Positions 75 to 52,589 of a stretch of 61,928 bases of DNA are shown here, piece by piece. The position numbers were made by a program, and so were the translations under genes. The stretch's first letter is position 1, and every line of letters begins with the position of its first letter. This stretch comes from Boothiomyces macroporosus (lineage: Eukaryota; Chytridiomycota; Chytridiomycetes; Rhizophydiales; Terramycetaceae), in assembly GCA_027604185.1 (NCBI GenBank), contig JADGKB010000088.1, forward strand, positions 1-61,928, in the 5' to 3' direction. A model generated the notes under the pieces. That model saw only the letters and a list, made by a program, of their open reading frames with translations. It ran no database searches and was not told the DNA's origin.

Positions 75-950
75 TTATAGAAATAGAACAAGAGATAATG
101 CTGCCCAGATATTCGCACTTGTAAATGTCGGTACCCCAGAGTTGCCTTCAGACTTTTCGCTCCCATTACTTTTCGGATTCAGACCTTGAATCGGACTTTG
201 TATCGCAGAACTTGACGGCTGATTAAGCCCTGAATTGTTATTGTCAATAACATTTGAGGTCCCGTTTCCAGTAGTCCCGCTAGACTGAGCACTCTGTTGG
301 TTCGAAACTCCACCGTTATTAACATTCGGATTGTTCTTGATTCCCGAATTAGTGTTAATAGAATTCAAATTACCAGAATTTGAATTTTGTGAGTTCATAA
401 TGGGGGAGTTTCCGTTGGTATTTGCATTATTATTGGATATCGAGTGACTGTTTGGTGTATTAGACGGCCTGCCTATTATTGTAACAACAGTTACATCTGT
501 GCTGCCTCCGCTTGGCAAGTCTACTACTGGCGCAGTAGTTGCTGTGGGTGGGGGCTTGAACTTTGGTACCGTAACATACGGTGAAAGCCCAAGGATGTAT
601 CCAATACCTCCTCCGAAAGAATTTATTCCAACTTCATCGCAGTGCCCAATACTAAAATGTGCTGTGAAATTGTCTGGTGCAATACTATGATCTTGCAGTA
701 TTTGGTACAGTTGCTGGGAAGCATCTTCAGACATACACAGCTTTCTAGTGCAACTGCTGTTATCTACTGATTGCATAAATGTAACCGTCAGGTTGTAGTC
801 GGTAAAACAGATGTCTGTAGGACAAATGAAATGGCTTTCAAGAGACCCCTGAAGTTAGCAATGCCTTACATAGACAGGTATAGGTTTTGTGGATTGTGTC
901 TGGCAAGCGTCTCCAAGTACTGCTGATATGAGAGAATACAGGTAAATCAT
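75..950 (-). CDS. Secreted Cys/Ser/Asn-rich protein, probably GPI-anchored (paralogue A)
   Basis: Two exons, 870-950 and 75-848, separated by a 21-nt intron (849-869) that carries an in-frame stop and a GCTAAC branch motif. The model gives 284 aa. It opens with a short hydrophobic signal peptide (MIYLYSLISAVLG), followed by an ectodomain of about 120 residues with paired cysteines and N-glycosylation sequons. A proline patch (KFKPPP) leads into a long Asn/Ser/Gly low-complexity stalk. The C-terminus is hydrophobic (ANIWAALSLVLFL), as in GPI-attachment signals. The cysteine spacing and the stalk-plus-hydrophobic-tail plan match the next gene, so the two look like paralogues. I recognise no family; a cell-surface or wall protein is inferred from layout only. 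Confidence 0.72.
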
Positions 951-1113
951 TGTCTATGAAGAAATTGGGTGATGCCGTTCTTTTTATTTGGGCTCTGAGC
1001 TTTCAGTTCCCAAAATAGAAGCAATGTTTCAGTGGTGCCCTCTGCGGTCCAAAAAACACAACCAAAGAAAAGATTTTGGTATTAATATTAGTTTTAAGCT
1101 ATTCACAAAATAA

Positions 1114-1779
1114 TTACGATATCAATAATATTACAGTAATGAAAACCAATTTCACCAGCCACGGGGTCGGTGAATTAAATGCGGAAGCGTTGTTTGCGGT
1201 TTGTTTTGCATCCAGTGGTGTGGCACTTAATAAAATGGATGCTGTTGGTGAAGATTGGACAGAATTTGTAGGGGTTGGTCCTGGAATTTGCCCTTTTGAA
1301 TCACCTGGGAATGTTATTGTACGTATTCCGTTAATGTGATTGCCGATAAAATCCGTTATCGTTTGAATAGAAGGTTCATCTTCTGTGTTGGCTGGGATTG
1401 GTATAGGAATAGTAGAAGTTTGTACGGGTGGAGGCTTCACGACAACGAGTTTTGAGCTCTGTGTAGACTGATTGCAGTATCCTGGGGTGTAGTCTATCTC
1501 TATCGTTGTGTTTGCAGTATGCGGGTAATAGCTGTTGATGATATCTTGAGATTGATGCGTCAGGCCTGCGATTAAAGAACTCTTACATAGATCGGATGTG
1601 CAATTATATTCAGCGGAAGTATTCCGCAATCCAACATCGATATTTTGAGGTAAAACGCATATTACAATTTGGCAGTGGGGTGCGTCCTTTCCAAACAAAG
1701 TGATATCTACAGTAGTGTTGTGAATCCTACACAGTCCGTTGACAAAACTAGTAGTATATAGCCATTTCATTGAGTGCAT
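1114..1779 (-). CDS. Secreted Cys-rich surface protein, probably GPI-anchored (paralogue B)
   Basis: A single open frame of 221 aa. The N-terminal region holds several cysteines and N-x-T/S sequons. A PPP linker and a Thr/Ser/Pro/Asn-rich stalk follow, and the protein ends in a hydrophobic tail (LVKLVFITVILLIS) typical of a GPI signal. Motifs around C-x-x-x-LC, the Q-x-x-I stretch and a late Y/H-C pair line up with the neighbour downstream, so this is probably a diverged tandem paralogue. The start ATG at 1779 lacks a strong signal peptide (MHSMKWLYTTSFVNG is only moderately hydrophobic), so an upstream mini-exon may be missing. Function unknown. Confidence 0.6.
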   Translation of the reverse strand: MHSMKWLYTTSFVNGLCRIHNTTVDITLFGKDAPHCQIVICVLPQNIDVGLRNTSAEYNCTSDLCKSSLIAGLTHQSQDIINSYYPHTANTTIEIDYTPGYCNQSTQSSKLVVVKPPPVQTSTIPIPIPANTEDEPSIQTITDFIGNHINGIRTITFPGDSKGQIPGPTPTNSVQSSPTASILLSATPLDAKQTANNASAFNSPTPWLVKLVFITVILLIS

Positions 1780-1895
1780 TTTTTATTTACAGTTTTCAAA
1801 AGAAAACAGGTGCTGTCAGTGCCCTAAAAGCCAGAAGTCAATGCATCGGCAGTTGATCTGATTTTCAAGTAATTACGGCAAGAAATGGAAAAACT

Positions 1896-2690
1896 TTATT
1901 GAATTTTGAATGGAGTTGCCTTGGCATCGTTTTGCCCCAAATTGCTCAAGTTAAAGAGCATTTCAACGGTAGCTAACTGGGAGTAGTGAGTATAGGCAGT
2001 GTTATCCTTTGAGCCTGGAGTAACCCCTCCTCCCATCAAGAGAGCATAAACTTGATTGGTTGTGTAGGACTCATCTTCATCAAAAGTGATCAGGAACAAA
2101 GTGTTTGCAAAGTATGGATTGGTGAAGAGAGGACCAATGGTGTTTTCGACCCAGTTGGAAGCAGTACCAACGTCGGTATCGTGTCCATCATTTTGCATAT
2201 TTGGAGTGTAGAATACATAGCTTGGAACCTTTTTGTTTTGAATATCGCTAGCTAATTGTGAAGCCGGGACAATGTTTGCGCATCTGGTGCTGTCTTTTGC
2301 GACAGTAGTGTACGAGATAAATGGGTTGTGTTTTCTTTTGTATGGATAGCTGTCGCCAGTGAAACAGTTGCCAGGGTAGTTTTCTTCATATGCTGCCCAT
2401 GTCTTTCCGCCAGCAGTCAAGATATCAACAATGCTCTTCTGTTTAACATTGACATTGCTATCTGAAGAAACCCCAAAAGTGCTTCCACCAATCATTGCAA
2501 CATAGTTTGGTTGGGATGGGTGAGCAACTGCCTTGTAATTGGTAAGCAGACGCCCTTGAGATGGCAAAGTAGTTCCCAAGTACTGATCTTGCATGGCAGT
2601 AGCATAATCAGTGTTTTCCAAGACAACGACAAAGAATCTATCGATGGTGGCAAATGCTGCAGTAATAAGGCAGAGGAATCTAAAGCTCAT
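1896..2690 (-). CDS. Secreted phosphoesterase / acid phosphatase (PF04185 type), copy 1
   Basis: 264 aa from the ATG at 2690, chosen because it opens directly with a signal peptide (MSFRFLCLITAAFA); an upstream in-frame ATG would add 17 polar residues in front. The mature part begins with FFVVVLENTDY and contains HPSQPNYVAMIGG and a late TFDEDES motif, the pattern of the phosphoesterase family that includes fungal secreted acid phosphatases. A role in releasing phosphate from extracellular esters is inferred from the family. The stop codon overlaps an AATAAA signal. A tandem paralogue lies 170 bp upstream on the same strand, and the N-terminal half is about 97% identical at DNA level to that copy. 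Confidence 0.85.
   Translation of the reverse strand: MSFRFLCLITAAFATIDRFFVVVLENTDYATAMQDQYLGTTLPSQGRLLTNYKAVAHPSQPNYVAMIGGSTFGVSSDSNVNVKQKSIVDILTAGGKTWAAYEENYPGNCFTGDSYPYKRKHNPFISYTTVAKDSTRCANIVPASQLASDIQNKKVPSYVFYTPNMQNDGHDTDVGTASNWVENTIGPLFTNPYFANTLFLITFDEDESYTTNQVYALLMGGGVTPGSKDNTAYTHYSQLATVEMLFNLSNLGQNDAKATPFKIQ
2275..2663. repeat. Near-identical block shared with 3241-3629 (paralogous phosphoesterase genes)
   Basis: The segment matches 3241-3629 at a constant offset of 966 bp with about 11 differences by eye, while flanking coding sequence of the same two genes is clearly more diverged. This points to partial gene conversion or unequal exchange. Confidence 0.75.
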
Positions 2691-2861
2691 TGCTCCATGC
2701 GAACATTTGTCCATTTTTATATTTGCCGCGGGATCGTGCACTCAGACGTTCCAATGATGCACGTTGCAACGTTTTGCAAATGTGGACGGCGTGGGTTAAA
2801 GCATTACGGCAGAGATATCAGACTTTTGCGGAATAAAGATCTAAATAATTCTAAGATACTT

Positions 2862-3650
2862 TTATTGAATGACAAATGGAGTGGCATTTGCATCATTTTG
2901 GCCCAAATTACCCAAATTGAATAACATCTCGACAGTTGCAAGTTGGGAATAATGAGTATATGCAGTGTCATCAGTACTTCCAGGAGTTACTCCTCCACCT
3001 AACAGGACGGCGTAAACCTGGTTTGTGGTGTATGATTCATCTTCATCAAAAGTGATCAGGAACAAAGTATTATTAAAGTACGGGTTTGTAAGCAAAGGCC
3101 CAATGGTGTTTTGTACCCAGTTGGAAGCAGTGCCAACGTCTGTGTCATGCCCATCGTCATTCATATTTGGAGTGTAGAAAACATAGTTTGGAACATTGCT
3201 GTTTTGAATATCAGTATCCAATTGTGAAGCAGGAACAATGTTTGCGCATCTGGTGCTGTCTTTTGCGACAGTAGTGTACGAGATAAATGGGTTGTGTTTT
3301 CTTTTGTATGGATAGCTGTCGCCAGTGAAACAGTTACCAGGGTAGTCCTCTTCGTAAGCACCCCATGTCTTTCCGCCAGCAGTCAAGATATCAACAATGC
3401 TCTTCTGTTTAACATTGACATTGCTATCTGAAGAAACCCCAAAAGTACTTCCACCAATCATTGCAACATAGTTCGGTTGGGATGGGTGAGCAACTGCCTT
3501 GTAATTGGTAAGCAGACGCCCTTGAGATGGCAAAGTAGTTCCCAAGTACTGATCTTGCATGGCAGTATCATAATCAGTGTTTTCCAAGACAACGACAAAG
3601 AATCTATCGATGGTGGCAAATGCTGCAGTGGCCAAGTATAAAAACTTCAT
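2862..3650 (-). CDS. Secreted phosphoesterase / acid phosphatase (PF04185 type), copy 2
   Basis: 262 aa from the ATG at 3650, which gives a clean signal peptide (MKFLYLATAAFA). It has the same family motifs as the neighbouring copy: VLENTDY, HPSQPNY and FDEDES. Identity to copy 1 is much higher in the N-terminal half than in the C-terminal half, where many synonymous and replacement changes occur. The AATAAA signal overlaps the TAA stop. If the small upstream ORF at 3682-3882 is real, the promoter of this gene would have to lie inside it. Secreted phosphatase activity is inferred from the family, and the pair suggests dosage or substrate specialisation. Confidence 0.85.
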   Translation of the reverse strand: MKFLYLATAAFATIDRFFVVVLENTDYDTAMQDQYLGTTLPSQGRLLTNYKAVAHPSQPNYVAMIGGSTFGVSSDSNVNVKQKSIVDILTAGGKTWGAYEEDYPGNCFTGDSYPYKRKHNPFISYTTVAKDSTRCANIVPASQLDTDIQNSNVPNYVFYTPNMNDDGHDTDVGTASNWVQNTIGPLLTNPYFNNTLFLITFDEDESYTTNQVYAVLLGGGVTPGSTDDTAYTHYSQLATVEMLFNLGNLGQNDANATPFVIQ

Positions 3651-3681
3651 TTTGATTTGTTGGTTGAGCAAGACAATCAAT

Positions 3682-3882
3682 TTATAGCTGCGGCAGTTCT
3701 CGCGCAAGGATACGCATGGTGGAATCCCTGTTCACCCCAAAATGTTTAAACGTTTCGGCACACCCACCAGATATCATGGCAACCAAAGAAAACATGGAAA
3801 AATAGAACGAATGATTGGCCAAGTAATAAATACGTCCCCAGTGAGTAATATAAAGGGAAATTGCGGCCGTGAGGGAGTTCAT
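3682..3882 (-). CDS. Possible small single-pass membrane protein (complex I NI9M/NDUFA3-like layout)
   Basis: A 66-aa frame with an amphipathic N-terminus, one hydrophobic segment (about residues 27-42) and a basic tail containing HFGVNRD. Length and order loosely resemble the small 9-kDa single-helix accessory subunit of mitochondrial complex I, but I cannot prove homology by eye. The start lies 6 bp after the upstream gene's stop and overlaps that gene's likely AATAAA signal, and the ORF ends 31 bp before the phosphoesterase start. It could instead be a chance frame inside that promoter. Reported because composition and hydrophobicity look protein-like. Confidence 0.35.
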   Translation of the reverse strand: MNSLTAAISLYITHWGRIYYLANHSFYFSMFSLVAMISGGCAETFKHFGVNRDSTMRILARELPQL

Positions 3883-4565: not shown

Positions 4566-7427
4566 CTAGATTAGTTGTTGGTGTACCTTTTCTCCAAGAG
4601 CCAATGCAATACCTTGAGTTTTTGATCTAATGCGAATATGACCAGTGATTACGTTGTTGGTTAGTTCCAAACAGATGTTGGCAAGAGCATCTTCCCCGAA
4701 AATAGATTGTGAGTACATATTGGCTGCGAGGAACCCACAATCACCAGATAATGCATTTTCAGCGGTGAGACAATGCATATTTGTAGCCTTCAGAACAAAG
4801 TCAAGATACTGGCGAAGATCTTTGATATAAGTGGTGACGATAACTTTGTTTTCCCATTCAAATTCTTCCCACATACTTCTGAATTTCGTCTCGGAGCAAG
4901 TTTTTGGTTTAATGTAGTCCATGATATCAATGTGGATATCATTTAAAACGACCGAATTAAATTCAGATAGTACAGCACCGTCGTATACAATGTTACCAAA
5001 GATAATTCCGTTTTCAGTTGAGGAAACTTTAAAGTTTGCTTTTATGGAATGGAATCCGTGAGGACCAATGGTCTGTGGGGTTGGCTTTTCAACTAATTTC
5101 AAGTCTCCAAGAGCAGAAAACTCGATGGTCAAGTTTTGTAAAGTCTGGGGCGTTTGATTGATAATCAAAATTTCTAATTAGTTTGTAATTACCCAATATA
5201 ATATCGAATTGGTGGACATTGACATACACTTCCGCATACACAGGGTCTGAATACCCAGTTAATTGCATAATTCTGTTGAGTTTTGATATATAAATTTCTT
5301 GATCTGAACCTGCTCCAGTAGCTCTAGTTAAATCAGCAACATCTTCATCAGCAGCATTTTCGCCATTCTTTTTGCTTTTCAACAGTCTAAAGTTCACTAC
5401 GTCGTCAACTTGAGCTTTAATGTTGCTTCCCGAAGTTTTTGTATTGACTTTCTACCATTAGAATATCTTACGTCTCTTGATTCAATAATCTTTCCAAATG
5501 CCTTTCTTGAATCATTAAGGAAAGATTGAACCATTGCATTATCAATTGGGTTAGAAGCCAAGACTCTTATGCAAGTAACCAATCTGCCGTAAGAATCTTC
5601 ATCAATTTGAGCAGATACAAACGATGATTTTCCAACACGGATTATACTGGTAATAATCAGCATCACTTCGGTTTTGAAAGCATTGGCCTTAATAGGGCTT
5701 GCTATTTGAGCATATCGAAGTGCTAGTTTTGTCAAAGTGCTTCCTAGAACTGCAGTAACAAAGAAATCACCAGCGAAAATCAGTGTTCTAAGAGGGGGTC
5801 TAACTGAATGATTAGCAGTGCCATTTTGATTTCCATTTGCTGAAGAGTAAATGGTTTCAGTAGCATAGGTGCCATCAGCCAAAATTCGTTTAGGAGTACT
5901 GGATTTTACCTTTTCTTCAGCAACTGTTGGTGAGTGTGGTTCTTGAAGCATCTCTTCATGATCAACAATCGGTATAGGTCCAAGTGATTCTCTAATACTT
6001 TCCAAACTTCGTTCAATCAATTGCTCGTCGTTTGCGTATTCCCCAATTGCCCACAGTGCTCCTCGAAGAGTTCTGCCGGTTTTCATCTCCAGGAATGAAT
6101 CTAGCAAGCTAGAAGTAATGCTGGATCGAAGGTGCTCAAATCTTTCCATTACTTCTTTTACAAATGTGACTACATCAACGGCAGAAAGTTTGTTTGAATC
6201 GTTCAAAAATTCCATCAATACATGAACTACAGAGTCGGCTACTTCAGGGAACTTGATAGCACATGTATGGATTGATTGAATCAATAACTGGCGGTATTCG
6301 TTTGTCTTTTCGTATTCTTGATCATGAGTTTTGACCAACTCTTTTTTCAAGAAAGTGATTACTTCATCCACATTTCTTCCAGATACCATTTCCATGGCAA
6401 TAGAGAGACACTTTCTTCGTACAGACAGATCAGGACTAGAAACAACACGCAAGATATCCATAACTGAGTCGTCAAGGATTCTTTCATTCTTTTCACGGAG
6501 TTCGTTGATCCTGGAAAGGACAATTAGTTTAACATTATTATCTGATTCCTTTACCGCAAGTTCAATGTAACACGATGCAGCAGCTTTTACAGCGGATGCA
6601 TGACTAGATAAATACACCAAAGTATTGGCTGCTTCATATCTAACAGAAGGTGACGCAACAGTCAATAGTGAAATCACTGTTTGAATATATCGTGCCTTGT
6701 CTGCTGAAGGTGATCTACAATCTTTTCGAATCAGTTCAATAAAAGCAAGTTGTAGTTGCTGATCGAAATTAACAATCTGAGTTGCAACATTATGGAAATA
6801 TTGAACTGCTACAGGTAATGCAGTATTTATCAACATAATCAAAGCATTTCGTCTGGCACTTTGATCTGCTTCTGCTCCGAGATATGCTTCAATCAGTTCA
6901 TTTGCATCTGGAATCAGATATTGGTGGATTTTGAAGATGGAGAAAATTGCCAAGACTGCGTTTTTACGAACGTAAGGATGCTTGTGTTCTAGACACTGTC
7001 TAACTGAAGGAATCAGCGGTTCAAGAATGTCGGCTTCCTTTAATTTACATAGCAATCGCAAGCACTGGCCACGAATAAATTCGTTTGGGTGAAGCAGGTC
7101 ATTACGAAGCGCATTACTGATATTAGGCACATTTTACCATACTAACACCATTTCAGGTCTAGGAGTCCCATCCGAATTGCGCTTTGCGCATATTTCCCAG
7201 TACAGGAAGCAAAGTTTCTTTAATGGTTTATTCTTGGATGGCATCACAAATCTGATGACGTGCATCAACAGTCCATTCAGAGATTCCCCGTTCAACATCA
7301 TCGCCAAGATTGTTTTCATTGCCTGGATTTTTTGAGATTCCTTTCCAGTTTCTAGTTGCTTCTTCAAGTCATTAACCGGAATCTCTTTTTCGTCATTGCT
7401 TTGTATAAGCGTGTACGCTGCTTCCAT
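4566..7427 (-). CDS. SEC26: Coatomer subunit beta (beta-COP)
   Basis: Four exons (7138-7427, 5472-7116, 5193-5451, 4566-5173) with introns of 21, 20 and 19 nt give 933 aa, close to family length. Beta-COP is a COPI vesicle-coat subunit acting in Golgi-to-ER and intra-Golgi transport. The N-terminal adaptin-like solenoid holds the family string [20 protein letters not shown]. The C-terminal appendage region holds [46 protein letters not shown] and [14 protein letters not shown] motifs. The start was chosen at MEAAYTLIQ, which matches the usual beta-COP N-terminus. The junctions restore V-C-N-A-L-R-N-D-L and [12 protein letters not shown]. The gene is divergent to PUS1 across 299 bp. Confidence 0.97.
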
Positions 7428-7726: not shown

Positions 7727-9212
7727 ATGAAGAGGAAAAACCATAAACAAAAAGATTTTCCGGCAAAGCAACCAAAGCTAGATGAACCCATTGCAGAACA
7801 TCTAGTCGCACTGTCGCTGAAACCAGTCGAATGCGGAGCACTTTCAGAAACTGAAAACTTGGAATATGAAAAGAAATATATCAACTCACAACGTAGAAAT
7901 AGAACTTTGGAAGAGGATCGCGGACCCAGAGAGCCAAATCCAAGCTCGATAAGAAAGCCAAAGAAGAAGGTTGCATTACTAATGAGCTATGCTGGAACAG
8001 GATACCATGGCATGCAAATGTATTTATTTTTAATTTAGTAATCCTCTATCTTCTTCAATTGAATTGGATTTGCACAAAGCTCTTGCCGCGTCTGGAGCAG
8101 TATCTCAAGATAATGCAATGGATCCAACCAAGGTACTTTATCTTTAACAAGTCTTCCTTTGTAAGATGCGCTAGAACCGACAAAGGTGTTCATGCTGCTG
8201 GCAACGTTGTTTCTTTGAAAATGTCATTGGATGATGGAATTATAGGAATGATTAATGAAAAACTGCCACCTCAAATCAGAGTATGGGGTTGGTCCAGAGT
8301 CCCAAACAAGTTTAGCGCAAAAGTCATGTGCGATTCTCGTATATACGAATACTTGCTCCCTACTTATTGCTTAAAAGATGTCGATCCATCTTTTTATCCG
8401 CATAGCAACGTCGCCCTCAACGCTAACTTTGATATTAGCAAACTGGATAGAAAATTAAACGAGCCACAAGAATTGCCTCCTATAGATAAACATCATTTGG
8501 AGAAATTGCAGAGCTATAGAGCCCCGCCAGAAAAGCTTGATGAATTAAAGGAAATTTTGGCAGAATATAAAGGGACAAAGCTGTATCATAACTTTACTGT
8601 CGGTAAAACCTCAAAAGATAAATCAGTCAAGAGGTATATCATTGATTTCCAGTGCGGAGAGCCGTTTGTCAGAGATGGAATTGAATGGGTTAGCTGTAAA
8701 GTACTTGGTCAAGCATTCATGCTCCATCAAATTAGAAAAATGATTGGGCTTGCTATTTTGATGGTTAGAAGCGGAACAAAGAAGGATCTTATTCAGCATT
8801 GCTTTGGTGAAGAACGAATGAACATTCCTAAAGCACCTGCCCTTGGATTACTACTTGAAAGAGTAATAGTTATTAACAAAGCCGGTATTTGATCATTACA
8901 ATGAGAAGGAGGGAACAAAAGAAGATCGAGATGTAATCGATTTCACTCCATTCCAAAAGGAAATCAACGAATTCAAAGAGAGATGGATTTACAAAGCGAT
9001 TTCTGACACTGAAAAGAATGAAGGACAGTAATAATGATTAATTCAGATTCGCGGACTGGTTGCGATTGGTAGACCAATGCAGTGATGACTACTCTTGGTT
9101 TTTAAACACCAAGAATTGTTTTGATCTTGGGCTACAGCCTGAAAATCTGTTCAAGAAAGGAACAAAAGCCAATGACGAAGAGGAACTCGTTGATGAAGAC
9201 GGCGAAGAGTAA
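7727..9212 (+). CDS. PUS1: tRNA pseudouridine synthase PUS1 (TruA family)
   Basis: Five exons (7727-8019, 8039-8132, 8152-8862, 8882-9027, 9047-9212) separated by four introns that are each exactly 19 nt; 469 aa. TruA-family enzymes isomerise uridine to pseudouridine in tRNA and some snRNA/mRNA, in nucleus and mitochondria. Seen: a basic N-terminal tail, the entry strand VALLMSYAGTGYHGMQ, the catalytic loop CARTDKGVHAAGN with the nucleophilic Asp, SRIYEYLLP, YHNFTVGK and the C-terminal core QAFMLHQIRKMIGLAI. The acidic C-terminal tail (EELVDEDGEE) is typical of eukaryotic PUS1. Each splice restores conserved text, for example MQI-NPLSSSIELDLHKA and LLER-PVFDHYNEKEG. Confidence 0.96.
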
Positions 9213-9323: not shown

Positions 9324-10888
9324 ATGTTGGCAAACCTGGTTCAGAATGAAACGTTTCTGTTTGGAGTAACCACTGGAATAGCACTTGTAGCGACAATCCA
9401 ATATTTTGCTGGATTCTTTACCAAACCAGCTGAATCACTTGAACCCTCAATCATCCAACCAGTAGTTGAACAATTTGGACCGCCAGCTTCACGACCTATA
9501 ACTCCAGCTTCGAATCTTGGGTCAGTGCTTGCAAACCTAGACGAGCATCTCGTCGTATCAACCGCAAAATTACAAAAGATTGTCTTGCATATGGTGACTG
9601 AATTTAAGAAAGGATTAGCCAACGATGGGGAAGTTATTGCAATGTTGCCATCTTATGTAATAAACAGACCTACTGGGAGCGAAGTTGGTGTATATTTGGC
9701 ATTGGACTTGGGTGGAACAAATTTCAGAGTTTGCAGAGTAAATCTGGAAGGATACGGGAATATGAGATTAACCTCGGCAAAATACACCATCTCTGACGAG
9801 TTGAAAACTGGACCTGGTGAGAAATTGTTTGAATTCTTGGCTGATTGTGTTGCTGCATTTTGTAAAGATTACGGGCTAGATCCAACTGGCGATTCCATTC
9901 CTATGGGTTTTACGTTCTCTTTCCCTTGTAAACAGATTGCAATCGATAAAGGTAAGTGGAACTAATTTAGGAATCCTTTTAACTTGGAGCAAAGGTTTTA
10001 TTTGTGATGGTGTCGTTGGAAAGGACGTAGTAGAATTTTTACAACGCCAATTTAAAAAGAAGGGACTAAACATTCAAATTAAGGTATGCTGATTCTTATC
10101 AAGGCAATCGTCAATGACACCGTTGGCACACTAATTGCACATGCTTACTCTGATCCTCAAACATATATTTCTGTCATTTTAGGCACTGGAACCAACGCTG
10201 CTTACGTTGAAAAAGTTGCCAATATTCGCAAATGGGGCTCTGGATCTGGTGAAGTCATCATCAATACTGAATGGGGAGCGTACAAGGAAGCCTCAATTTT
10301 ACCTATAACTCACTGGGATAACGCACTTGATCGTAAAACCACAAACCCTAAGCAACAGATATTTGAAAAGATGATCTCTGGGATGTACTTGGGAGAAATT
10401 GTCAGACTGATTTTGATTGATCTGATTAAATCTGGGGAATTGTTTAATGGGGTTGGTTCTCAATTGTTGGAAGAGCCTTACCACTTTGACACTGCTTACA
10501 TGTCCCGTATTGAAAGGTAAATCACTCTAACAATAGAGATCACTCTTTGGGGTTATCGGACACCAAACAAGTGTTGGAAGATGTAATGGGAGTTGTAAAC
10601 TCAAGCATTGATGATCGTCGTATAGTTAAACATGTCTGCGAACTCGTTGGAACTAGGGCAGCTCGTCTTGCTGCTGCTGGCGTCGCTGCTTTGGTTACAA
10701 AGATCAATCGTTTAGACGCATGTACAGTTGCCATTGACGGCTCATTATTTGAACATTATCCTCATTTTGGCAACAGAATGAGAGACGCTCTTCGCGAATT
10801 ACTCGGTATTACCGCACAAAACATTTTACTTGAACAAGCTAGAGATGGATCTGGACAGGGTGCTGCTTTAATTGCTGCTTTGGTATAA
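9324..10888 (+). CDS. Hexokinase, membrane-anchored (HXK copy 1)
   Basis: Four exons (9324-9951, 9971-10083, 10104-10516, 10537-10888; introns 19, 20 and 20 nt) give 501 aa. It phosphorylates glucose and other hexoses with ATP. The start at MLANLVQ is the first true ATG; the frame upstream has none. Residues about 11-32 form a hydrophobic segment (FLFGVTTGIALVATIQYF) that could anchor the enzyme to a membrane such as the mitochondrial outer membrane, which is inference. Core motifs: LALDLGGTNFRVCRV (phosphate loop), MGFTFSFPC, VNDTVGTLIAHAY, ILGTGTNAAYVE, TEWGAY, ISGMYLGEIVR and ARDGSGQGAALIAAL. A second hexokinase lies 14 kb away with a different intron set. Confidence 0.96.
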
Positions 10889-10954: not shown

Positions 10955-11577
10955 ATGTACGAACTGAACGAGCAAGAAATCCAAGAGCTTTACGACTGGA
11001 TAGACCAAGCAAAATTCAGCCGTCCAAAGCGAAATATCACCAGAGATTTCAGCGATGGCGTTGCATGCGCAGAGTTAATTCACCACTTTCTTCCAAAACT
11101 AGTCGATCTCCACAACTACTCACCTGCCAATTCGATATCACAGAAATTATACAATTGGAACACCTTGAACTGTACTCTTAGCTAATCCTAGTTAAAGTAT
11201 TCAAGAAACTGGGATATGTAACTTCAGACGAGATTATTCATTGTATAGTGACTATGAGACCGGGATACGTAGAGTATTTGTTATATGAGTTGCGTATAAA
11301 GGTATTTTGTAGATTGAATTAGATTGAGAATTATCATAGTCATACCCCACATCCACCAGTTGTACCACCACCAGAACCAGCTCCTAAAGTAAAGCCAGTG
11401 GTGAAAGAAAAGGTTGTTCAGGAGCCTTATCAACCAGATGCAATGGTGAACCCAATCATACATGAAATGAACGAGACGATAAAGATCTTACAGTTGAAGG
11501 TATCCAAATTGGAAGAGCTGTTGACACTTAAAGACGGAAAGATTCGTGAATTGTCAAGGAAACTCCAAAGAGAATAA
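10955..11577 (+). CDS. SPEF1: SPEF1/CLAMP-like calponin-homology microtubule protein
   Basis: Three exons (10955-11171, 11192-11301, 11323-11577; introns 20 and 21 nt) give 193 aa. The N-terminal CH domain of the SPEF1/CLAMP type contains LYDWIDQ, FSRPKRNITRDFSDGVACAE, HNYSPANSISQKLYNW and VFKKLGY. A Pro-rich hinge and a C-terminal coiled coil (about residues 150-193) follow. SPEF1 proteins bind and bundle microtubules in cilia and flagella, notably around the central apparatus. Its presence implies that the organism builds a motile flagellum at some stage. The stop codon overlaps AATAAA. It is downstream of hexokinase 1 with only 66 bp between them. Confidence 0.92.
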
Positions 11578-11624: not shown

Positions 11625-12436
11625 TTACAATTTTGGCTTTGAAAGACGGGCAATGACTCCTTCCAAGCTCTTTACAGTTTTTGGAAGAGAGAGCATTCCC
11701 CAACCCATGGCGCTTTCTGCTTCAAGTCTCTCATCATCTCCCCATTCGCTGGCCAACTCCTGTCTTAAAATATTCTTGCATATAACTCTTCCAGTGTCAG
11801 GTGTTTTCAATAACTACCATCAAGATCAATTACCTGTTTGAGAACTGCTTCCGCTGCTGGCAAGAGATTGTCCCTAGAGTCAACAATTTGATCAACCAAG
11901 TTGATCTCTACGGCTTTCTTTGCATCAACCATTTGCGCAAACAAGATAATCTTTTCAGCATGGGTCTGTCCAACAACTTTTACAAGCAACTTCATCCAGT
12001 ATTCTGGAACTGTAATACCCAAGGCTACTTCATTTAATCCCATGGACATATCCGGAGTTGCAATGCGGTAATCGCACACTAAAGATAAACAAGTACCGCC
12101 GGCTGGGCAAGCGCCGCTGATTGCAGCAACAGTGGTTAATCTAGAGTTGTACAGATTTGCCAAAAATTGATTTTGTAACTTCCAGAATCTAGTATATCGC
12201 TCTTTGCTGGATTTAGGAGCATACAGCTCCAATATATCATTACCAGCAGTGAAAATTGGACGTTCCAATCCGGATCTAAAAATCACAGCTCTGACTTTGT
12301 TGTTATCCTCAAGTGCTTTCACTGCTGCATCCAACTGTTCCCATAAATCCAAGTTCATTGAGTTTACAGGATCTCTTTTAATAGTTACAATTGCATAATC
12401 CTTTTTGATTTCGGTGAAAATGATTTGTTTGGACAT
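11625..12436 (-). CDS. ECI1: Enoyl-CoA delta-isomerase / crotonase family, copy A
   Basis: Two exons (11834-12436, 11625-11813; 20-nt intron) give 263 aa. The protein is a crotonase-fold enzyme, best matching 3,2-trans-enoyl-CoA isomerases that feed unsaturated fatty acids into beta-oxidation. Seen: PVNSMNLDLW, RPIFTAGNDILELY (oxyanion-hole segment), ACPAGGTCLSLVCDYRIA and GLNEVALGITVPEYW. The C-terminus is SKPKL; the final PKL fits a non-canonical type-1 peroxisomal targeting signal, so peroxisomal location is plausible but inferred. A mitochondrial presequence is not evident. Copy B upstream has the same exon structure and the same length. Confidence 0.9.
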
Positions 12437-12543
12437 AGCAAAAACGGGAGAACCGAGTTAGTTTATATACCGCAGTAGAATGCCACATGATAATAACATC
12501 ATATGGTTAAACAAAATATCTAAAGAATGAATCAATTTTATCA

Positions 12544-18488: not shown

Positions 18489-18640
18489 GTTGGTATCAAA
18501 AATCAGGCGTCCTTTTAACCGTCAAGGTCCTTCCTTTTTCATTCTATTGCTTGCTGATATTGAGCCTGGCCAAGGTACCAAGCTGCCGCATGACCAACAG
18601 AATCTTGCACGCTAAAGAAAGTCAAACGGAATATTATATT

Positions 18641-27935: not shown

Positions 27936-28156
27936 GAGTATAGTGAAATTGTGGGCGGTATTTATACCTTTTTTTCTTATCATTCCGATAACAAGCTTGG
28001 CCACAAAAAATGTTTAAAAAGAAGGTTTCTGGAAACAACTGCGGATGGTAAAACCACTGTAATCAAATTGGACCGCAAAAGCCACTGTAATCAAACTAAT
28101 TCATTTATTAGTGAGACACGTGTAAAATGAAACGCGCTTGATAAATGATAAATAAT

Positions 28157-40986: not shown

Positions 40987-43900
40987 TTACACAGTTGAAG
41001 GATGAATTGTGGTTGCATTTTTGGGTAAAGTATACACCCAGCCTTTTTCAATTACTAAATCCAGAAACTGCTTGAATGTTCTGGACGCCGATATCGTTTT
41101 CATACTACCAAATAAAACCAATTTCAGTTTGGCTCTAGTAATTGCAACATTTAATCTCCTCCAATCCTTCATTAGCTCACCAGTCTTTGTTAATAAAATA
41201 AGCACCTGCTGGGAAGCATTCGATCTAGTCATTGAGATAATAATACATTCTTTATCTCTTCCTTGATACTTGTCTATTGTTAAAGCCTCGACTCTAGGGG
41301 TTCTTGATAGGGCTTTTGAAAGTAAAGATAGTTGATGTCGATAAGGTGAAATAACTCCAATAGCAGATTCGTCCATACCATTTCGCACCATAACTTCAAC
41401 AAGCTAAGTTAGTGCTGTCTTTGCCTGCGATACTAGCTGTACTTCAACTCTATTTTCAATCCACACACCGTGTTTCGTCTCTGTGCCTGGAATATTGTCA
41501 GTGTCACAGAATAATACCGAGGAGCTAGTTAGTCAATTGTTACTTTTCTTTCAATACTTGATTGATCCAGCACTGAGAATCGCATTCTTGTAAATGTACA
41601 TTGGGTATCTCCAACTGCTTCTTGGCAACAGATTCATTTGCACATAATAGACGATATTCGTATACCAGATGATTTGTCAATAGCATAATGTCTTGATTCA
41701 TTCTATACTGCAAGGACAGATATGTAATCGCTTGGGGATTCGCTTCGCACAGGTGCTTGAACAAAGAAACTGGTTCAACATGATTTTCATCCGACTGTGC
41801 AAATAATGGAGGTAATTGGTAGTGATCGCCCACCAACACAAATTTGTCACTGAACTTTAAAGGACCAATGCAAATTGGAAGCACTATTTGTGAGGATTCA
41901 TCAACGATACAGTAATCAAACCTTCTTCTAGTGAAAATTGGACTACAGTTAATATGGATTTACTGATTGGCTCCCAGTGCAGTGGTAGCCACCACTCTAG
42001 CAGAATCATAGTAGATGGAAATTTTTTCAAGGTTATCCAATGCTTCTCTCTCCGATTCAACAATATCTCTTATTCTAGGATGCATCTGCATTAGTCATGT
42101 ATACTTTTTTCACTGAGCCCAATCGAACAAATTCTATTTCCTTGTCAACCAATTTCAGCAAGATATTGTCAACTGCAGAGTGAGTATAAGCAACCACCAG
42201 AATAGATTTTCCTCTCTTAAGTAGCATTTCGATCATGCATGCTCTACAATTATAACTATTTACATTGTGGTGGTTTTTCCTGTCCCTGGCATACCAAGCA
42301 ATAGGGTGTAATCTTGGGACGCATTTACTTTAAGCAGTGCATGCACTTGATCAGAATTCAACTCCTTTTGGTACTTTTCAATATATTCAGGTTGATATGG
42401 ATAGTACCCCGGTGGTTTAGTATCAACGATTAGTTGTTTTAATCTCGAATATGTTGGATCCACAAACATTTCAAACAAATTACCCCTGATCGAACTCATT
42501 CCGCTCGAATAGCTATCCTTTTCAATATTGTATAACGTTTTCTCATCAAAGACCGTCTGCTGTCCCTTTTGTAGGGGTTTATCGCAATAAACAGTGATGG
42601 AACTTTTGGTAGTATGTAGAACAAACCCAATTGCCAACGGATGAAAAGAATTGTGCCTGGTCACAATTATAGGTTCTCCATCGACATACCCATACGACGC
42701 TAGTGGTATAAACGAAGGGCTGTTTTCCATTTTCGTTAATGTATACTCATATTTGAAACTTTGCCCAGAGGATACTTTTGCACTGGCTATTGAGAGTCCA
42801 GACATGCAGCTGTAATTAATACCAACATTTACATTTTCATTTGCTCTCTTTTTTCAGTCGGCAAAGTCCAAAGGTACTTTGTGTTTTTTTCACTGTTTCT
42901 ATCCTCTATATCAATAAGCTTTATCCACTTGTTGATAAATTGCATTTGCTTTACAGTTAAAGTTTTTAGAGATTCTTCAAATAGGTTTGCCAAGTCTGGC
43001 GGAGTTTCTTCATGCTCCACTGTTTTATTGTACATGAAGCAAGTTTCTTTGACAAAGCATCGCTTACATACTGTGGTATTCTCCATCATAGGCGGAACGG
43101 TCTTTGCTGATTGGTAATGTGCTATTTTATTCCGGGCAATCATCAATCCGCGAATTTCGTTCTGATTTGTCACAACTGCCTTTGTATCATTTCCGTGCAA
43201 ATATACTAGTAGCGCTTTATCTACCTTGATTTTATATTTGTCTTGCAACAGTAGTGTATATAGCGATGTTTGAGCATTGTGCGAAATGTGCTGCCTTTTC
43301 CCCGTCTTTAGTTCCAGTGGGATTTTATCTATGTTAACCAACAAGTACTATTATCCCGCCCCAATACTGTAGCATCAATGTTTCCCTTTATCCCAAACTT
43401 TGGAGACCAGATTCGTTCTTCAATGTCCACAATATCTCTAACAATCCCTCCTGGAACTTGGTAGTTTTGATTTTTCCAGTTCACAATCAAATCAACTATC
43501 TCTACTAACTCATCATAGCACTCTTCGACATCCATTCCAAGACTGTACAGATCAGTGATGGATTCTTGAATCAGATATTTCAGTTTATCTTTCAACCATT
43601 GCGATTGAAAGTTGTGCGCTTCCATAGCTTCTTGAAATAAATTATGAGATACAGTCCCAAAGAACATTGCCTTTGTTGTAGGACCGAAAAACTTCACTTG
43701 TTCTTTCAGTACAGACTTTCGGACACATGGAAAAGCGTCTGAAACAGAAGTGCTGGTAATCAAAACATCCGGATCTACTATAATAATCCCTTCATAGTTT
43801 GTAATATGCAATTCATTTACTGCATCTATATCCGGCAAACTTTCATATATCAAATGAATAAACTTGCCAGGCTCAAATTTACATTCCATCCAGTCATCGT

Positions 43901-44248
43901 AAACATGCACTGCAAATTGTTTTTTCAAATTACCGTCCAAGGCGACTCGAAGCTGATGTTAACAATAAATCATACTGTGATGGGGTCTGAATATGTAACT
44001 TGCAAAATTACGCAGCGAATATAATCCTTCTGTTCCGATTGAAATGACTTTATAAAAGCGAGGAAAGGATTATTGGCCACAGCATCGTTTGGATTCAAGA
44101 CATTTTCCGATGAATACCTTTTGATTTTTAGAGGAGATGGCTCTAATCCGCTACAGCTTGGCGAACTTGAATTTACATGTATCTGGCGGCCAAGTCTTTT
44201 TATGGGTGGTGTAGTGAGCCATGATATCCTCTGTTCTTTCCTTTTCAT
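40987..44248 (-). CDS. DNA2: DNA replication ATP-dependent helicase/nuclease DNA2
   Basis: Nine exons with eight introns (43953-43975, 43329-43348, 42810-42832, 42244-42263, 42086-42104, 41943-41963, 41525-41543, 41404-41433) give 1028 aa. DNA2 trims Okazaki flaps and resects double-strand breaks. Seen: nuclease region GTVSHNLFQEAMEAH, KGNIDATVL, PLELKTGKRQH; Fe-S cysteines in FPCVRKSVL and VCKRCFVKETC; helicase motif I GMPGTGKTTT, motif II FDYCIVDESSQ, VGDHYQLPPLF, YRMNQDIM, VISPYRHQLSLL, and motif VI RLNVAITRAK. The last intron is 30 nt, the longest found. The start at MKRKEQRISWL is 26 bp from the divergent neighbour's ATG. Confidence 0.96.
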
Positions 44249-45228: not shown

Positions 45229-46150
45229 ATGTATCAACAAAGGCAATTCGCACCGGGCCAACAATTGAACCAGCAATTCTACGCACAGCACCAGCAACAG
45301 CAGCTAGCGCAAGCTCAAGCTCAAAATGGTTATCCTCAACAGAAGCAAACATTGTCAAACATTGATCCAACATTGTTATTGGGACAATACTCTTCTGAAA
45401 ACATCAAGGAAGAAATGGGGAAGGATTTTCTGAATCACCAGTTTGATATCAACATGAATGGGAACATTAATAATGCTGACCAGTTGCTATCTCCGTTAAC
45501 TCCAACGGAAGATTTTAACAGGGAAAGGTCTTCAAATGCAGGGTTTGGTACTCTATAAATTTATCCTAGGAACTAGTATGCCTCAGTCTGGGTTTTATTC
45601 CATGTCTGTCCCAGTTCACTCAAATAACGGCTATCCCGCTGTTGATCAAAAAAACTTCTTGCAGCACCCTTCTTCATTTTCATCTTATGGCTCTCCAATG
45701 GGGATCAGCAACAATTCGCTACCTGAAGAAGCCGGTGATCGCCAATCGTAATCATTAATTAATTCTAGAATTGACGCTATAAATGAAAAGCGCAGAAAGC
45801 GCCGTGAGTCACACAACGCCGTTGAGAGAAGACGAAGAGACCATATTAACGAAAAAATTCAAGAACTATCGTCGCTATTACCAGAATTTGCATCTGACGC
45901 TCAAAACAAACCAAACAAGGGTGTAATCTTACGCCGTTCTGTAGAATATATTAGACATATGCAATTGTTTGCTGCTCGTCAAATGGATCGCACTTTAGAG
46001 TTGGAACAATGCTTGATGAGACTGTGTCAGAATAGAGGAATTGACGAAAGCGAACTTGGTCTGTCTATGCCATTGGGCACACCTATTCAACTACCTGCTT
46101 TGAATCAAAGTAATAATCTAGATTTGGACGGGCCAGATGGCGACTTGTAA
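45229..46150 (+). CDS. bHLH transcription factor (E-box binding type)
   Basis: Three exons (45229-45547, 45570-45747, 45769-46150; introns 22 and 21 nt) give 292 aa. The N-terminal half is Gln/Asn/Ser-rich (MYQQRQFAPGQQLNQQF), typical of activation regions. The bHLH domain begins after the second splice: KRRKRRESHNAVERRRRDHI, then NEKIQELSSLLPEF, a loop, and KGVILRRSVEYIRHMQ. The basic region has the His, Glu and Arg (H..xxERRRR) that read CACGTG-type E-boxes. A following heptad stretch (RTLELEQCLMRL) suggests a zipper. Targets unknown; USF/MITF/fungal Cbf1-like grouping is a family-level inference. Convergent with the zinc transporter 101 bp away. Confidence 0.9.
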
Positions 46151-47804: not shown

Positions 47805-48869
47805 CTATGCTTGGTAATCATACACAGGAGCTTCATTGCTGGTTAATGCAATGCAATGGACCTTCTTGCCTTCAGCCAAACTCTTTTCGTGTCTTTTTAA
47901 TGCGTCTCTTCTAGAAAACCCTCTTCCGCATCTGTTGCATGTAAAAGGCTTTGATTGTGAATGGATATATTGGTGTCTTTTTAGATCTATCATCAACTAA
48001 TAATTACCATGTGATCTTGAAAAGGCTTGTGGACATTTATCACAGACAAAAGGTTTTGATTTTTCGGCGTTTGGGTTCAAATGTGAGTTTTTGTGAGACT
48101 CTAAGCTAGTTAGTTTAGAATAAGTCTTTTTGCAGTCTGGAAAGTCGCATTCATAAACGGTTTGTGTAGGCGAAGTAGTAACACTGCCTTGGACGTAGGG
48201 TGAACTTGAATTACTCAAGTAAGGCAAGTTCATTTGCTGATTTGGGATTTGGTAGCCGTTGTAGTAGGTTGACATGTACTCTGGTGGATAACGATATTCT
48301 TGAGGCTCGTTTGACGGCATAGACAGCAAACTATCTGAATGGTTCAGTCTATTGATCATCGGAGACGATTGACTGGTAACACTCATTCTTTTCATACCAT
48401 CAGCAGACTGTACACGATGAATTCCGTCAACAATAGGATCAGAGTTTTCTCCAGAATAGGATGCTGTTCTATTCATTTGGTATGCTGAAGTCATTTCATA
48501 ATTTTCCATTTTGGGCATACTTGGATACATGTAATTATTTTCTAATTCGCCAATGCGCTGTTGTCCTTCCATGTTGTCCAATAGCAGCATATTCTTATCA
48601 TAACTAACTGGCTGTTGTGTATGTTGTGATTGAGGTTGCATAGTATCCATGCTGTCAAGGAATGAACCTACAATATAATCTACAGTCGGACCAACATCTC
48701 GAACAGCTGGAACATTGTGTTGATATTCATAATCGGTGTGATTTGAATATGCAGAAGTTGGTTGTTCTTCAACAGAGCCCTTGAATGTCGATAATAGTGC
48801 AGACATACTACGCTCATATAAATTTGTTGATGGTGACGGCATAACGGAAACTGAACTTTTTTGATTCAT
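47805..48869 (-). CDS. C2H2 zinc-finger transcription factor (three fingers)
   Basis: Two exons (48008-48869, 47805-47986; 21-nt intron inside the second finger) give 347 aa from the ATG at MNQKSSVSV; the frame upstream begins with GTG. The first 230 residues are Ser/Gln/Tyr/Met-rich and disordered. Fingers: YECDFPDCKKTYSKLTSLESHKNSH, read here as C-x4-C-x12-H-x3-H; FVCDKCPQAFSRSHDLKRHQ followed by YIH; and FTCNRCGRGFSRRDALKRH with a longer spacing to its last His. The splice joins SRSH-DLKRHQ. Fungal regulators with a similar C-terminal finger array control stress and developmental genes; the target set here is unknown. Confidence 0.9.
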
Positions 48870-49767: not shown

Positions 49768-50355
49768 CTAAAGATAACTGTTTATAAAATCCGTAGATTC
49801 TTTGATTGAGTGCTCTACAAAGTCAATCTTGGTAGGCAAGTGCTCCAACAGAAAAACTTCTCCTTCATACCCCAAGTATTCTTCTCCCATATTAAAATTC
49901 TTTGTTTTACGGATCTTTTCAATCTCCTGTTCAATAATCTTTTTGATTTTGTCTTTTTTCAACGCCAACAGCAAGTCGCTCTTGTTACACACAATCACGA
50001 GTTGGATATTCAATCCAAGTATTTCATAGAGCATTTCAATTGATTTCTTGTTACTGAGCAATGTTGAGCTGTCAATAAAGTAAAAAATGGTTTTGGTTTC
50101 CTTGATATATGAATGGTATTTAAAAAAGAGTTTTTCATGTCCTGGTAAATCAACAATCCGCTTTCCTTTTAATGTGAAAATGTTTTCTTGGAGCGAAGTT
50201 ACAGTCTCGCTTTGCTTGTTTTGAAGCTGCAAAAAGAATGTAGTTTTTCCGCTATTGGAAGGACCCATTAATAATATTGTATTCTTCTGCTTTCGAGTGA
50301 GAAAGAATAGGGCAAGGATAATCAGCAAAATGGAAATTCCAATTACGATTTTCAT
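49768..50355 (-). CDS. SRP102: Signal recognition particle receptor subunit beta
   Basis: 195 aa from the ATG at MKIVIGIS; the frame extends five codons upstream to a TTG. An N-terminal membrane anchor (IVIGISILLIILALFFL) is followed by a small Arf/Rab-like GTPase: G1 LLMGPSNSGKTTFF, G3 IVDLPGHEKL, G4 LVIVCNKSDLL. SRP receptor beta anchors the SRP receptor in the ER membrane and controls its release. Length matches the family. It lies 33 bp after the oligopeptidase B stop on the same strand, so its promoter must overlap that gene's 3' end. Confidence 0.93.
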   Translation of the reverse strand: MKIVIGISILLIILALFFLTRKQKNTILLMGPSNSGKTTFFLQLQNKQSETVTSLQENIFTLKGKRIVDLPGHEKLFFKYHSYIKETKTIFYFIDSSTLLSNKKSIEMLYEILGLNIQLVIVCNKSDLLLALKKDKIKKIIEQEIEKIRKTKNFNMGEEYLGYEGEVFLLEHLPTKIDFVEHSIKESTDFINSYL

Positions 50356-50388
50356 GATTGCTTTTTTCAAAAAAAGTACGTAGTGATT

Positions 50389-52589
50389 TTATTGAAGAGT
50401 AGAAATTAGATAGGCATTGATTATGGATTCGTCTTGAGCATTAGTGCCTTTATGTCCTGCCACTGACTTGCAGCTTGCCAGAAACACAGAGTTACCATGT
50501 TGCTCATGACGGAGTTTGGCCATGTATTTCATTGGCTCCCAGTAATTCACCCGCTTGTCTGTTAAACTGGTTGTGACAAGCACATTTGGAAATTGATCGC
50601 CAGTTGGAATATTGTCATATGGGCTGTATGAAGATATATAATCAAATATTTCTTTCTTTTGTGGATTACCCCATTCTTCATATTCATTGACTGTCAATGG
50701 AATACTAGCATCCATCATTGTATTAAGAGCATCAACAAAAGGCACTTGTAATATAGCAGATTTGCATATGGTAGGCTCCATATTCAACACTGTACCTACC
50801 AATAGACCCCCTGCTGATGCTCCTCTGATTGCAAGCTTTGAAGGACTAGTTATCTTTAGTTCAAAAAGATATTTGGCACAGCTAATGAAATCAAGGAAAC
50901 TGTTGCGTTTATGTTCAAGTCTTCCTGCATCCCACCTAGATTAAATGTATTTACCATTCATTGCTTGCATCACCACCACCTCTTACGAATGCAGCACCAA
51001 GCACAAACCCTCTATCTAGCAATGAAATGCAGGATGGATCCCAGCGAAATTCTAATGTGAGTTTAGATGTACTTGTAATAGCGCCGTATGCTCCATAACC
51101 TCTTAGTACTGCAGGATTAGAACCATCTCTTTTAAAGAGGTCTTTTCTATATACAACAGCAATTGGTACAACCGTTGGTAGAGGACAATCATCAATATTC
51201 ACTTGATGTTCTTTAGGTATTGGTACTTTAATGATTTCGCTCGTATACCGTGAAGGATCAAAATTATTCAATACTGTTTCTTTGATCACTGTCAATGATT
51301 TCCTGTTCATATTGTATGAAAGCAATTTAGGTGGTGAAATTGGAGATTCAACACGAATACTAAACTCCTCTGAATGATAGCTCAATTCATCAAACTACAT
51401 TAGTTGAAAATACATTTGCGATATTTGAGAAGCATACGCTTTCCGAAAATTCAATAGTTTGAGGTTCAGATAAATGTCCATTATCAGAATTGTATTCATA
51501 TACTCTAAAAAGATTTTGGCCGTTACATCTTTCAATTGTAACCACATGGTTCTTGAAAGCAATTACGTCGATTAGTCTTGTATGTGGATTGTATGGAGCA
51601 AATTCCTTCCAGGTTTCAATCCCAGTATTTGAAATTGGACAGACACAGAGCCTATTGTTTCTGAACTTGCCAGTCCCATTAGTTGTGATTATGAACTGTG
51701 TTCCTTGATGTTCAACACTGTAGATATGACCAGTAGATCTCTTTAAAACCAATTTCAAGTCTAAATTAAGAATAAAGCACCGTCTGATGACTCACTGAGG
51801 TTGACAAAGCTCCATTCTTTGGTTGAAGTCGAGTAAGTAACGACAAACAAGTATTCTTTAGAGATTGACTGTTGCAGGTACACTCGGAATGACTCATCTG
51901 CTTCATGAAAGATTTTTACTTCTTCTAGACCAAATGAACGTCGGTATACTGAACAGGGTCGTTGTTTTTGATCTTTCTTTACATAAAAAACCGTTTGGTT
52001 GTCCATTCCCCATACAATACTGCCAGAGCATTCTGGAATACTGTATTCATCCATCATCCTCATAGTTTTCAAGTCTTTAAAAAGGACTTTGTACCGCTCA
52101 TCGCCCTTAAAATCTACAGAAAAAGCAAGAACCTAAGTAAGTTTTTCAATTACATTTTGGTCTGGACTAACTGCAGTAGTATGTAGCCCGACGTATTCAG
52201 AGTCGTACTCATTCATGTCTAGTATAATTTGCTCTTCAGCTTCCAAACCGTACTTTCGACAATAATACCACCGCTTTTTGCCTTCTTCCTTTCTCCAATA
52301 GTAATAGAATGGCTCTACATGATGTAGCGCACCCGGGATTCCTTGCCCATTTGACAATGCTTGTGATTCACTCTTTAGCTTTTCAATCAGTTGTTGCTTA
52401 TCACTAAAATAAGAATCATAATATTCATTTTCAGCCTTGGTCAACCAAACTTACTTTAATATATTCCATAATATCTGGGTTAGTGGCTGGGGATTCGTTA
52501 CGGAGCCAGTGATAGTAATCCGGGTAGACACGTCCATGATATTCATTTTGATATTCAACCCGCTTCGCAAGTGGGAAATCAATGGTCAT
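50389..52589 (-). CDS. Oligopeptidase B-like prolyl oligopeptidase (peptidase family S9A)
   Basis: Six exons with five introns (52436-52454, 52133-52153, 51761-51780, 51395-51413, 50936-50954; 19-21 nt) give 700 aa. Oligopeptidase B cleaves short peptides after basic residues. Seen: the N-terminal PDYYHWLRNES of the S9A cap, a beta-propeller region, then the hydrolase domain with YGAYG, AFVRGGGDASNEW, the nucleophile elbow IRGASAGGLL, TSLTDKRVNYWEP with the catalytic Asp and AGHKG with the His. The third intron starts GTGC rather than GTA. The TAA stop overlaps AATAAA. Mostly bacterial, protist and plant enzymes are known in this family, so a fungal host is worth noting. Confidence 0.93.

Follow-up and report, generated by a model that had tools for sequence, protein, structure and literature searches.

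The window examined here is the whole of contig C88, a stretch of 61,928 nucleotides (nt) with a G+C content of 37-41% (4-kb windows). It carries, among others, predicted genes for MCM2, DNA2, beta-COP, oligopeptidase B, two hexokinases, two enoyl-CoA hydratases and a BROMI-like protein, all of them interrupted by introns of 18-24 nt. A motif-aware gene-finder run predicted 67 introns in 37 gene models; 63 of these introns measured 18-24 nt (18 nt, 1; 19 nt, 17; 20 nt, 22; 21 nt, 13; 22 nt, 3; 23 nt, 6; 24 nt, 1) and were spread over 19 of the 37 models, and the rest were single introns of 30, 39, 47 and 70 nt. No Rfam family reached its gathering score in the window, and no tRNA was found there. 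A previous, sequence-only reading of the window had rebuilt 71 introns (18 nt, 1; 19 nt, 17; 20 nt, 24; 21 nt, 16; 22 nt, 3; 23 nt, 8; 24 nt, 1; 30 nt, 1); compared by lengths, the two tallies are nearly equal, and the last window intron called by the finder (52436-52454) stops at the final base of that reading. These segments are almost certainly ordinary U2-type spliceosomal introns that have shrunk to one class of near-minimal length (18-24 nt); the host appears to be a zoosporic fungus with a largely canonical spliceosome.

Introns were called with a Viterbi gene finder written for this analysis, which scores codon usage and allows genes to skip segments with set end dinucleotides. In flat-prior runs neither length nor inner motif was favoured, and decoys were produced by the same finder with other end pairs in place of GT-AG; the motif-aware window run, in which 18-24 nt and a branch motif were favoured, was made after the unbiased run. 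The genome (15,203,306 bases in 216 contigs) was sampled by 20 stretches of 10 kb, one each from 20 other contigs, giving 261,928 bases together with the window. Under a flat prior of 12-80 nt, the window yielded 60 GT-AG introns, 36 of them 19-21 nt long, compared with 0-4 for four decoy pairs. Under a flat prior, the 20 stretches alone gave 159 GT-AG introns, of which 84 were 18-24 nt (five decoy pairs, 6-15), and with lengths of 12-150 nt the window and stretches together gave 114 GT-AG introns in this range (three decoys, 11-22). When 12-600 nt were admitted with a higher penalty, the 18-24 nt bin held 79 GT-AG introns (three two-base decoys, 7-13) and 81 GTA-AG introns (three matched three-base decoys, 4-9); GC-AG, AT-AC and GTG-AG showed no excess at 18-24 nt in the same run (7, 10 and 7, respectively). 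In the 261,928-base sample, GT-AG counts were within or below the decoy range in the bins of 12-17, 25-40, 41-80, 81-150, 151-300 and 301-600 nt. Because the sole excess over decoys falls in the 18-24 nt bin, one intron class is visible, and the proposal that ultrashort introns are the standard class was thereby confirmed for the window and the sampled genome. In the motif-aware mode, the finder called 302 introns over the window and the 20 stretches, and 272 of them fell in the 18-24 nt range: the window contributed 64 and the stretches 208, at between 1 and 16 per stretch.

It is rather unlikely that the ultrashort introns are one of two classes, the longer of which was missed by the finder. 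Introns of about 50-100 nt are the rule in most fungi, the method is blind to any intron that lies outside coding sequence, and the branch motif TRAY was present in 21 of 91 GT-AG calls of 25-150 nt (decoys, 15 of 156, 28 of 164 and 9 of 154), among which a few longer introns could hide; however, none of the bins between 25 and 600 nt showed a GT-AG excess over decoys, and both long calls that were examined dissolved. The single 30-nt intron of the sequence-only reading is better read as a 23-nt intron after ATG-TCA-ACT of MCM2, and the finder's own 47-nt intron was rejected, as it represents the uninterrupted C-terminus of beta-COP.

The introns conform to the consensus GTAWTT...YTRAY-N2-3-AG. 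Of the 114 flat-prior introns, which were selected without regard to the motif, 85 have TRAY at 4-7 nt from the end; decoy sets gave 1-3 each, and 7.9% of all AGs in the sample are preceded by TRAY at that distance. In these 85 introns the TRAY adenosine occupied intron base 14 (42 introns), 15 (33), 16 (6) or 17 (4), and it lay 4 (6), 5 (34), 6 (40) or 7 nt (5) from the terminal G, that is, 5-6 nt in 74 of 85. Across the 272 motif-aware introns, the donor had A at position 3 in 93%, A at position 4 in 63% and T at position 6 in 54%, and exon base -1 was G in 51%. YTRAY was present near the end of 190 of the 272, separated from AG by 1-4 bases (2 in 83, 3 in 80); a downstream polypyrimidine tract is therefore impossible in those introns. 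G+C content was 28% in introns and 39% in exons. At donor position 5, G was present in merely 18% and T in 45% of the 272, though the 5' end of U1 is canonical; no change matching this weak position was seen in the U1 5' end or in U6 ACAGAGA.

The host is probably a fungus, as the sequence-only reading had supposed. Its EF1A scored 890 bits against chain 1f60_A, which we take to be yeast EF1A, and 849 bits against the next EF1A chains, presumably mammalian; moreover, it carries an insertion that we regard as an opisthokont mark. A LYS2-type aminoadipate reductase, an enzyme typical of fungi, covers the family model with three segments, of which the highest-scoring reached 1328 bits (cut-off 1030); this search also gave hits in 12 of 14 prokaryote controls, none of them above the cut-off. 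The BROMI-like gene of the window has Pfam matches in two exons and, BROMI being a ciliary protein, suggests a zoosporic (ciliated) fungus; it is on EF1A, LYS2 and BROMI together that the host is read as such. Origin from a non-fungal lineage known for tiny introns (ciliate, chlorarachniophyte or mikrocytid), or from a mixed assembly, is very unlikely: few EF1A lineages are represented in the PDB, which makes the EF1A ranking weak, but the presumed yeast chain and opisthokont insertion, the LYS2 score, the reading of the genes by the standard code and the occurrence of the class on many contigs all speak for a fungal host.

Comparison with relatives supported the predicted junctions. For beta-COP, the first 901 residues of the spliced 1144-residue model aligned to solved beta-COP over residues 4-901 (918 bits); all three junctions were free of gaps, two of them (after residues 96 and 731) in conserved surroundings and the third (after residue 645) in weakly conserved ones. 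For MCM2, a core of 625 residues aligned to a PDB relative over 7-625 (846 bits), and the junctions at query residues 110, 289 and 409 were ungapped. Oligopeptidase B, spliced at five introns, aligned to solved oligopeptidase B over 6-685 (319 bits); by eye, four of the five junctions were ungapped within eight residues, and the fifth had a 2-residue gap four residues off. Elsewhere in the genome, the PROCT domain of PRP8 continued from 1-92 to 92-112 over a predicted 22-nt intron, and the Slu7 match from 1-143 to 143-242 over a predicted 20-nt intron. The exon sums, always multiples of three, had previously been offered as support; they are not independent evidence, because the gaps were picked to restore the frame.

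Seven pairs of paralogues were also compared. Four pairs were intronless in both models, and the three with introns share four sites of the same phase and differing length: one in the enoyl-CoA hydratases (205 of 263 residues identical; 20 and 21 nt), one in the hexokinases (383 of 494; 19 and 21 nt) and two in a third pair (210 of 266; 22/20 and 19/20 nt). The inner sequences of introns at common positions differ. Introns without a counterpart were two of hexokinase A, one early in hexokinase B and one of the third pair; in the latter two cases incomplete models may be the cause. The two hexokinase A sites (10084-10103 and 10517-10536) are read straight through in the genomic sequence of hexokinase B (24817-26411), for example TTGAAAG[20 nt]AGATCACTCTTT versus TTGAAAGAGATCACTCTTT; these exact empty sites have the look of clean intron gain or loss since the duplication of these paralogues, which are 78% identical.

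The splicing machinery was sought in the whole genome. A U6 small nuclear RNA (snRNA) gene (62 bits) and two U2 genes (142 and 135 bits) were found, and the 5' end of U1 (AUACUUACCUG), the GUAGUA of both U2 copies and the ACAGAGA of U6 look canonical. The two U2 genes (L004 and L005, on C80 and C178) are diverged, with identical branch-pairing regions. Among the proteins, PRP8 (C-terminal domain), U2AF35 (four exon pieces, 52-67% identity to the query), SF1 (114.6 bits), Slu7 (154.6 and 94.7 bits in two exons) and Prp18 (173.6 bits, in an intronless model) were present, and U2AF65 matched solved U2AF65 chains over RRM1-RRM2 (211.9 bits) and the UHM (82.8 bits). Introns of 19-24 nt lie within the models of PRP8 (part), U2AF65, U2AF35 (part), SF1 and Slu7 themselves. 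Several marks of U2-type splicing were found, namely an excess of GT...AG, a branch motif able to pair with U2 GUAGUA, and U1 (just under its cut-off), U2 and U6 genes. Taking the gaps instead for assembly or sequencing errors, programmed frameshifts or translational bypassing is barely credible, since, even if most gaps shift or break a frame and some models score low, errors would not all begin with GT and end with AG, carry a branch motif in one fixed place and peak in length at 19-21 nt; paralogues, moreover, have the gaps at the same position with different sequence, and snRNA and splicing genes are present in the genome.

The sequence-only reading had implied that the spliceosome is adapted to a nearly absent branch-to-acceptor spacing, which is not supported in that form: the distance is indeed short (5-6 nt in 74 of 85), yet the parts examined look ordinary and give no sign of the gross spliceosome reduction that might have been expected. 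The inspection it had proposed found U2AF65, U2AF35, SF1 and U2 and gave no match for U5, in a search that its prokaryote controls cannot validate. In yeast, Slu7 is reportedly dispensable at a short branch-to-AG distance, and loss of such factors was for this reason put to the test; adaptation by loss of U2AF, SF1, Slu7 or Prp18 was rejected, as all were found, and changed snRNA pairing regions were rejected, as those of U1, U2 and U6 are canonical. Any adaptation of the spliceosome must be subtle or reside in parts beyond those examined.

It should be noted that several points weigh against a single class of ordinary U2-type introns with a largely canonical spliceosome. The U1 snRNA scored 68.8 bits, just below the cut-off of 69.5; U5 was not found in the genome with RF00020, in a search whose prokaryote controls cannot show whether it works; and U2AF65, searched exon by exon, scored 230.7 bits, under the family cut-off of 310.3. 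Twenty-nine of the 114 flat-prior introns have no branch motif, and the T-richness between donor position 6 and the branch motif (mean 4.7 bases, 44% T versus 28%) was measured relative to exons only. The motif-aware set of 272 holds false calls: five decoy schemes gave 20-45 in the 18-24 nt bin, so that about 227-252 are real by subtraction, or about one per kb, and two of the 20 stretches, with just 1 and 2 introns, do not exceed the decoy rate. Lastly, stop-free introns of a length divisible by three are invisible to the finder; the in-frame stops in 63 of 63 introns of such length are therefore a biased result and were not used as evidence.

The lengths, motifs, spacing, snRNA pairing regions and splicing protein genes can be read from the DNA itself; the segments would be removed from RNA by splicing. 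U1, then U6, would pair with GTAWTT, while YTRAY, its adenosine mostly at intron base 14 or 15, would be bound first by SF1 and then by U2 GUAGUA, and the YAG coming 5-6 nt after the branch would serve as 3' splice site. Such spacing would exclude a polypyrimidine tract downstream and leave little distance to scan. U2AF65 may bind the short, weakly U-rich stretch before the branch, or may act mainly via protein contacts. About 18 nt would already be taken up by the 5' splice site, the U2 duplex and YAG, which would set the lower bound of intron length. It is a puzzle why this genome retains Slu7, Prp18 and a U2AF65 with both RNA-binding domains, given introns with no downstream tract and a branch-to-AG distance of 5-6 nt.

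Ultrashort introns are known from other systems. The heterotrich ciliates Stentor and Blepharisma have a single narrow GT-AG class genome-wide, and share with the present genome an ultrashort class as the norm and a branch adenosine a few nt from AG; however, their introns measure 15-16 nt, whereas those described here take several lengths from 18 to 24 nt in a probable fungus. Chlorarachniophyte nucleomorphs have GT-AG introns of very close length (18-21 nt), but these are reduced endosymbiont nuclei under 0.5 Mb, unlike this 15.2-Mb genome with U2AF, SF1, Slu7 and Prp18. Microsporidia, which are fungal relatives, also have short introns (from about 23 nt) with the branch close to the 3' splice site; they have few per genome, whereas here there is about one per kb sampled (272 in 261,928 bases, false calls included). 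Canonical fungal U2-type introns share the GTA donor, YTRAY branch, YAG acceptor, U1/U2/U6 pairing regions and U2AF-SF1, but usually have a longer branch-to-AG distance and measure about 50-100 nt, a class not detected here in bins up to 600 nt compared with decoys. The ultrashort class extends through the 261,928 of 15,203,306 bases sampled, and EF1A and LYS2 place the host, with moderate certainty, outside the lineages known for such introns. The chances are even that this genome is the first known case among fungi, and perhaps among all organisms other than ciliates and bearers of reduced endosymbiont or parasite genomes, in which introns of about 20 nt form the only class while U2AF65-U2AF35, SF1, Slu7 and Prp18 are all retained, although such introns have no room for a downstream polypyrimidine tract or a long branch-to-AG distance.

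If so, U2AF, SF1, Slu7 and Prp18 would have essential roles beyond tract reading and distance bridging, and a near-textbook spliceosome could operate at the geometric limit. The lower length limit for introns in a normal spliceosome and the reason why U2AF, Slu7 and Prp18 are kept are open questions, usually studied via engineered yeast introns or odd genomes, and a fungus with a single class of mostly 19-21 nt introns and these factors would make both testable. Gene predictors and RNA sequencing (RNA-seq) mappers with a minimum intron length of at least 20 would misannotate this genome and its kin.

The introns of the window are collected in Table 1. Pfam matches uphold the names MCM2, beta-COP, BROMI and DNA2 (Dna2, 170.7 bits, plus helicase domains) given previously, and a PUS1-type synthase domain; the name CCP1 is supported only by a peroxidase match below threshold (19.5 bits, cut-off 27) in the last exon of its gene, with no match for two inner exons.

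Table 1. Predicted introns of the window; for genes with several introns the span is given, with single introns listed under remarks.
Feature	Position	Strand	Basis and remarks
Beta-COP intron 1, 21 nt	7117-7137	-	finder; junction ungapped against beta-COP chain 9qpq_H
Beta-COP intron 2, 20 nt	5452-5471	-	finder and alignment; surroundings weakly conserved
Beta-COP intron 3, 19 nt	5174-5192	-	finder; ungapped alignment
PUS1-like intron, 19 nt	8020-8038	+	finder; next exon with PF01416
PUS1-like intron, 19 nt	8133-8151	+	finder
PUS1-like intron, 19 nt	8863-8881	+	finder
PUS1-like intron, 19 nt	9028-9046	+	finder
Hexokinase A intron, 19 nt	9952-9970	+	position and phase match 21-nt intron of hexokinase B
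Hexokinase A intron, 20 nt	10084-10103	+	exact empty site in hexokinase B
Hexokinase A intron, 20 nt	10517-10536	+	exact empty site in hexokinase B
Intron of low-scoring model, 20 nt	11172-11191	+	finder
Intron of low-scoring model, 21 nt	11302-11322	+	finder
Enoyl-CoA hydratase A intron, 20 nt	11814-11833	-	position common to paralogue B
Enoyl-CoA hydratase B intron, 21 nt	12733-12753	-	position common to paralogue A
Aminotransferase intron, 19 nt	14073-14091	+	finder
Aminotransferase intron, 23 nt	14621-14643	+	finder
Intron, 20 nt	15794-15813	-	finder
Intron, 23 nt	15467-15489	-	finder
Peroxidase-like gene (previously CCP1), six introns	22514-23214	-	23195-23214, 23028-23050, 22941-22961, 22708-22728, 22610-22629, 22514-22534 (20, 23, 21, 21, 20, 21 nt)
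Hexokinase B intron, 23 nt, immediately 3' of ATG	24820-24842	+	finder
Hexokinase B intron, 21 nt	25513-25533	+	Pfam hexokinase 3-149 then 149-201 across junction
BROMI-like gene, nine introns	30416-33892	+	30416-30435, 30521-30538, 30871-30889, 31172-31191, 31727-31747, 32463-32482, 32986-33005, 33419-33437, 33873-33892; BROMI matches in two exons
Intron of low-scoring model, 24 nt	34403-34426	+	finder
Doubtful call upstream of MCM2, 20 nt	35539-35558	+	finder; without branch motif
MCM2 first intron, 23 nt, after ATG-TCA-ACT	35851-35873	+	supersedes 30-nt call
MCM2, six further introns	36044-37698	+	36044-36062, 36224-36243, 36330-36349, 36742-36760, 37296-37315, 37678-37698; last three in ungapped conserved alignment, first three outside compared part
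Third-pair gene, three introns	38835-39241	+	38835-38856, 39039-39060, 39223-39241; last two at positions common to downstream paralogue
Downstream paralogue of third pair, two introns	40340-40541	+	40340-40359, 40522-40541
DNA2 gene, seven introns	41525-43975	-	43953-43975, 43329-43348, 42810-42832, 42244-42263, 42086-42104, 41943-41963, 41525-41543
Two introns	45548-45768	+	45548-45569, 45748-45768; finder
Intron, 21 nt	47987-48007	-	finder; gene with sub-threshold C2H2 zinc-finger match
Oligopeptidase B, five introns	50936-52454	-	52436-52454, 52133-52153, 51761-51780, 51395-51413, 50936-50954

Two introns lie very early in their genes, one right after the ATG of hexokinase B (24817-24842) and one after a first coding exon of 9 nt in MCM2 (35842-35873).

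The window also contains a 2.87-kb unit that is tandemly duplicated (54825-57696 and 57695-60565, 99.6% identity) and encodes an intronless open reading frame of 632 amino acids with a sub-threshold nSTAND3 match. This tandem is flanked by open reading frames with ankyrin repeats (53016-54123 and 60821-61928), which are 97% alike over 1.1 kb; the tandem and its flanks are due either to segmental duplication in the recent past or to a repeat in the assembly. Duplicated genes are frequent in the window: pairs were also observed for a phosphoesterase (1896-3728), hexokinase (9324-10888 with 24817-26411), enoyl-CoA hydratase (11625-13356), GH76 (17178-19990) and a berberine-bridge-like protein (26448-29662), side by side or not far apart.

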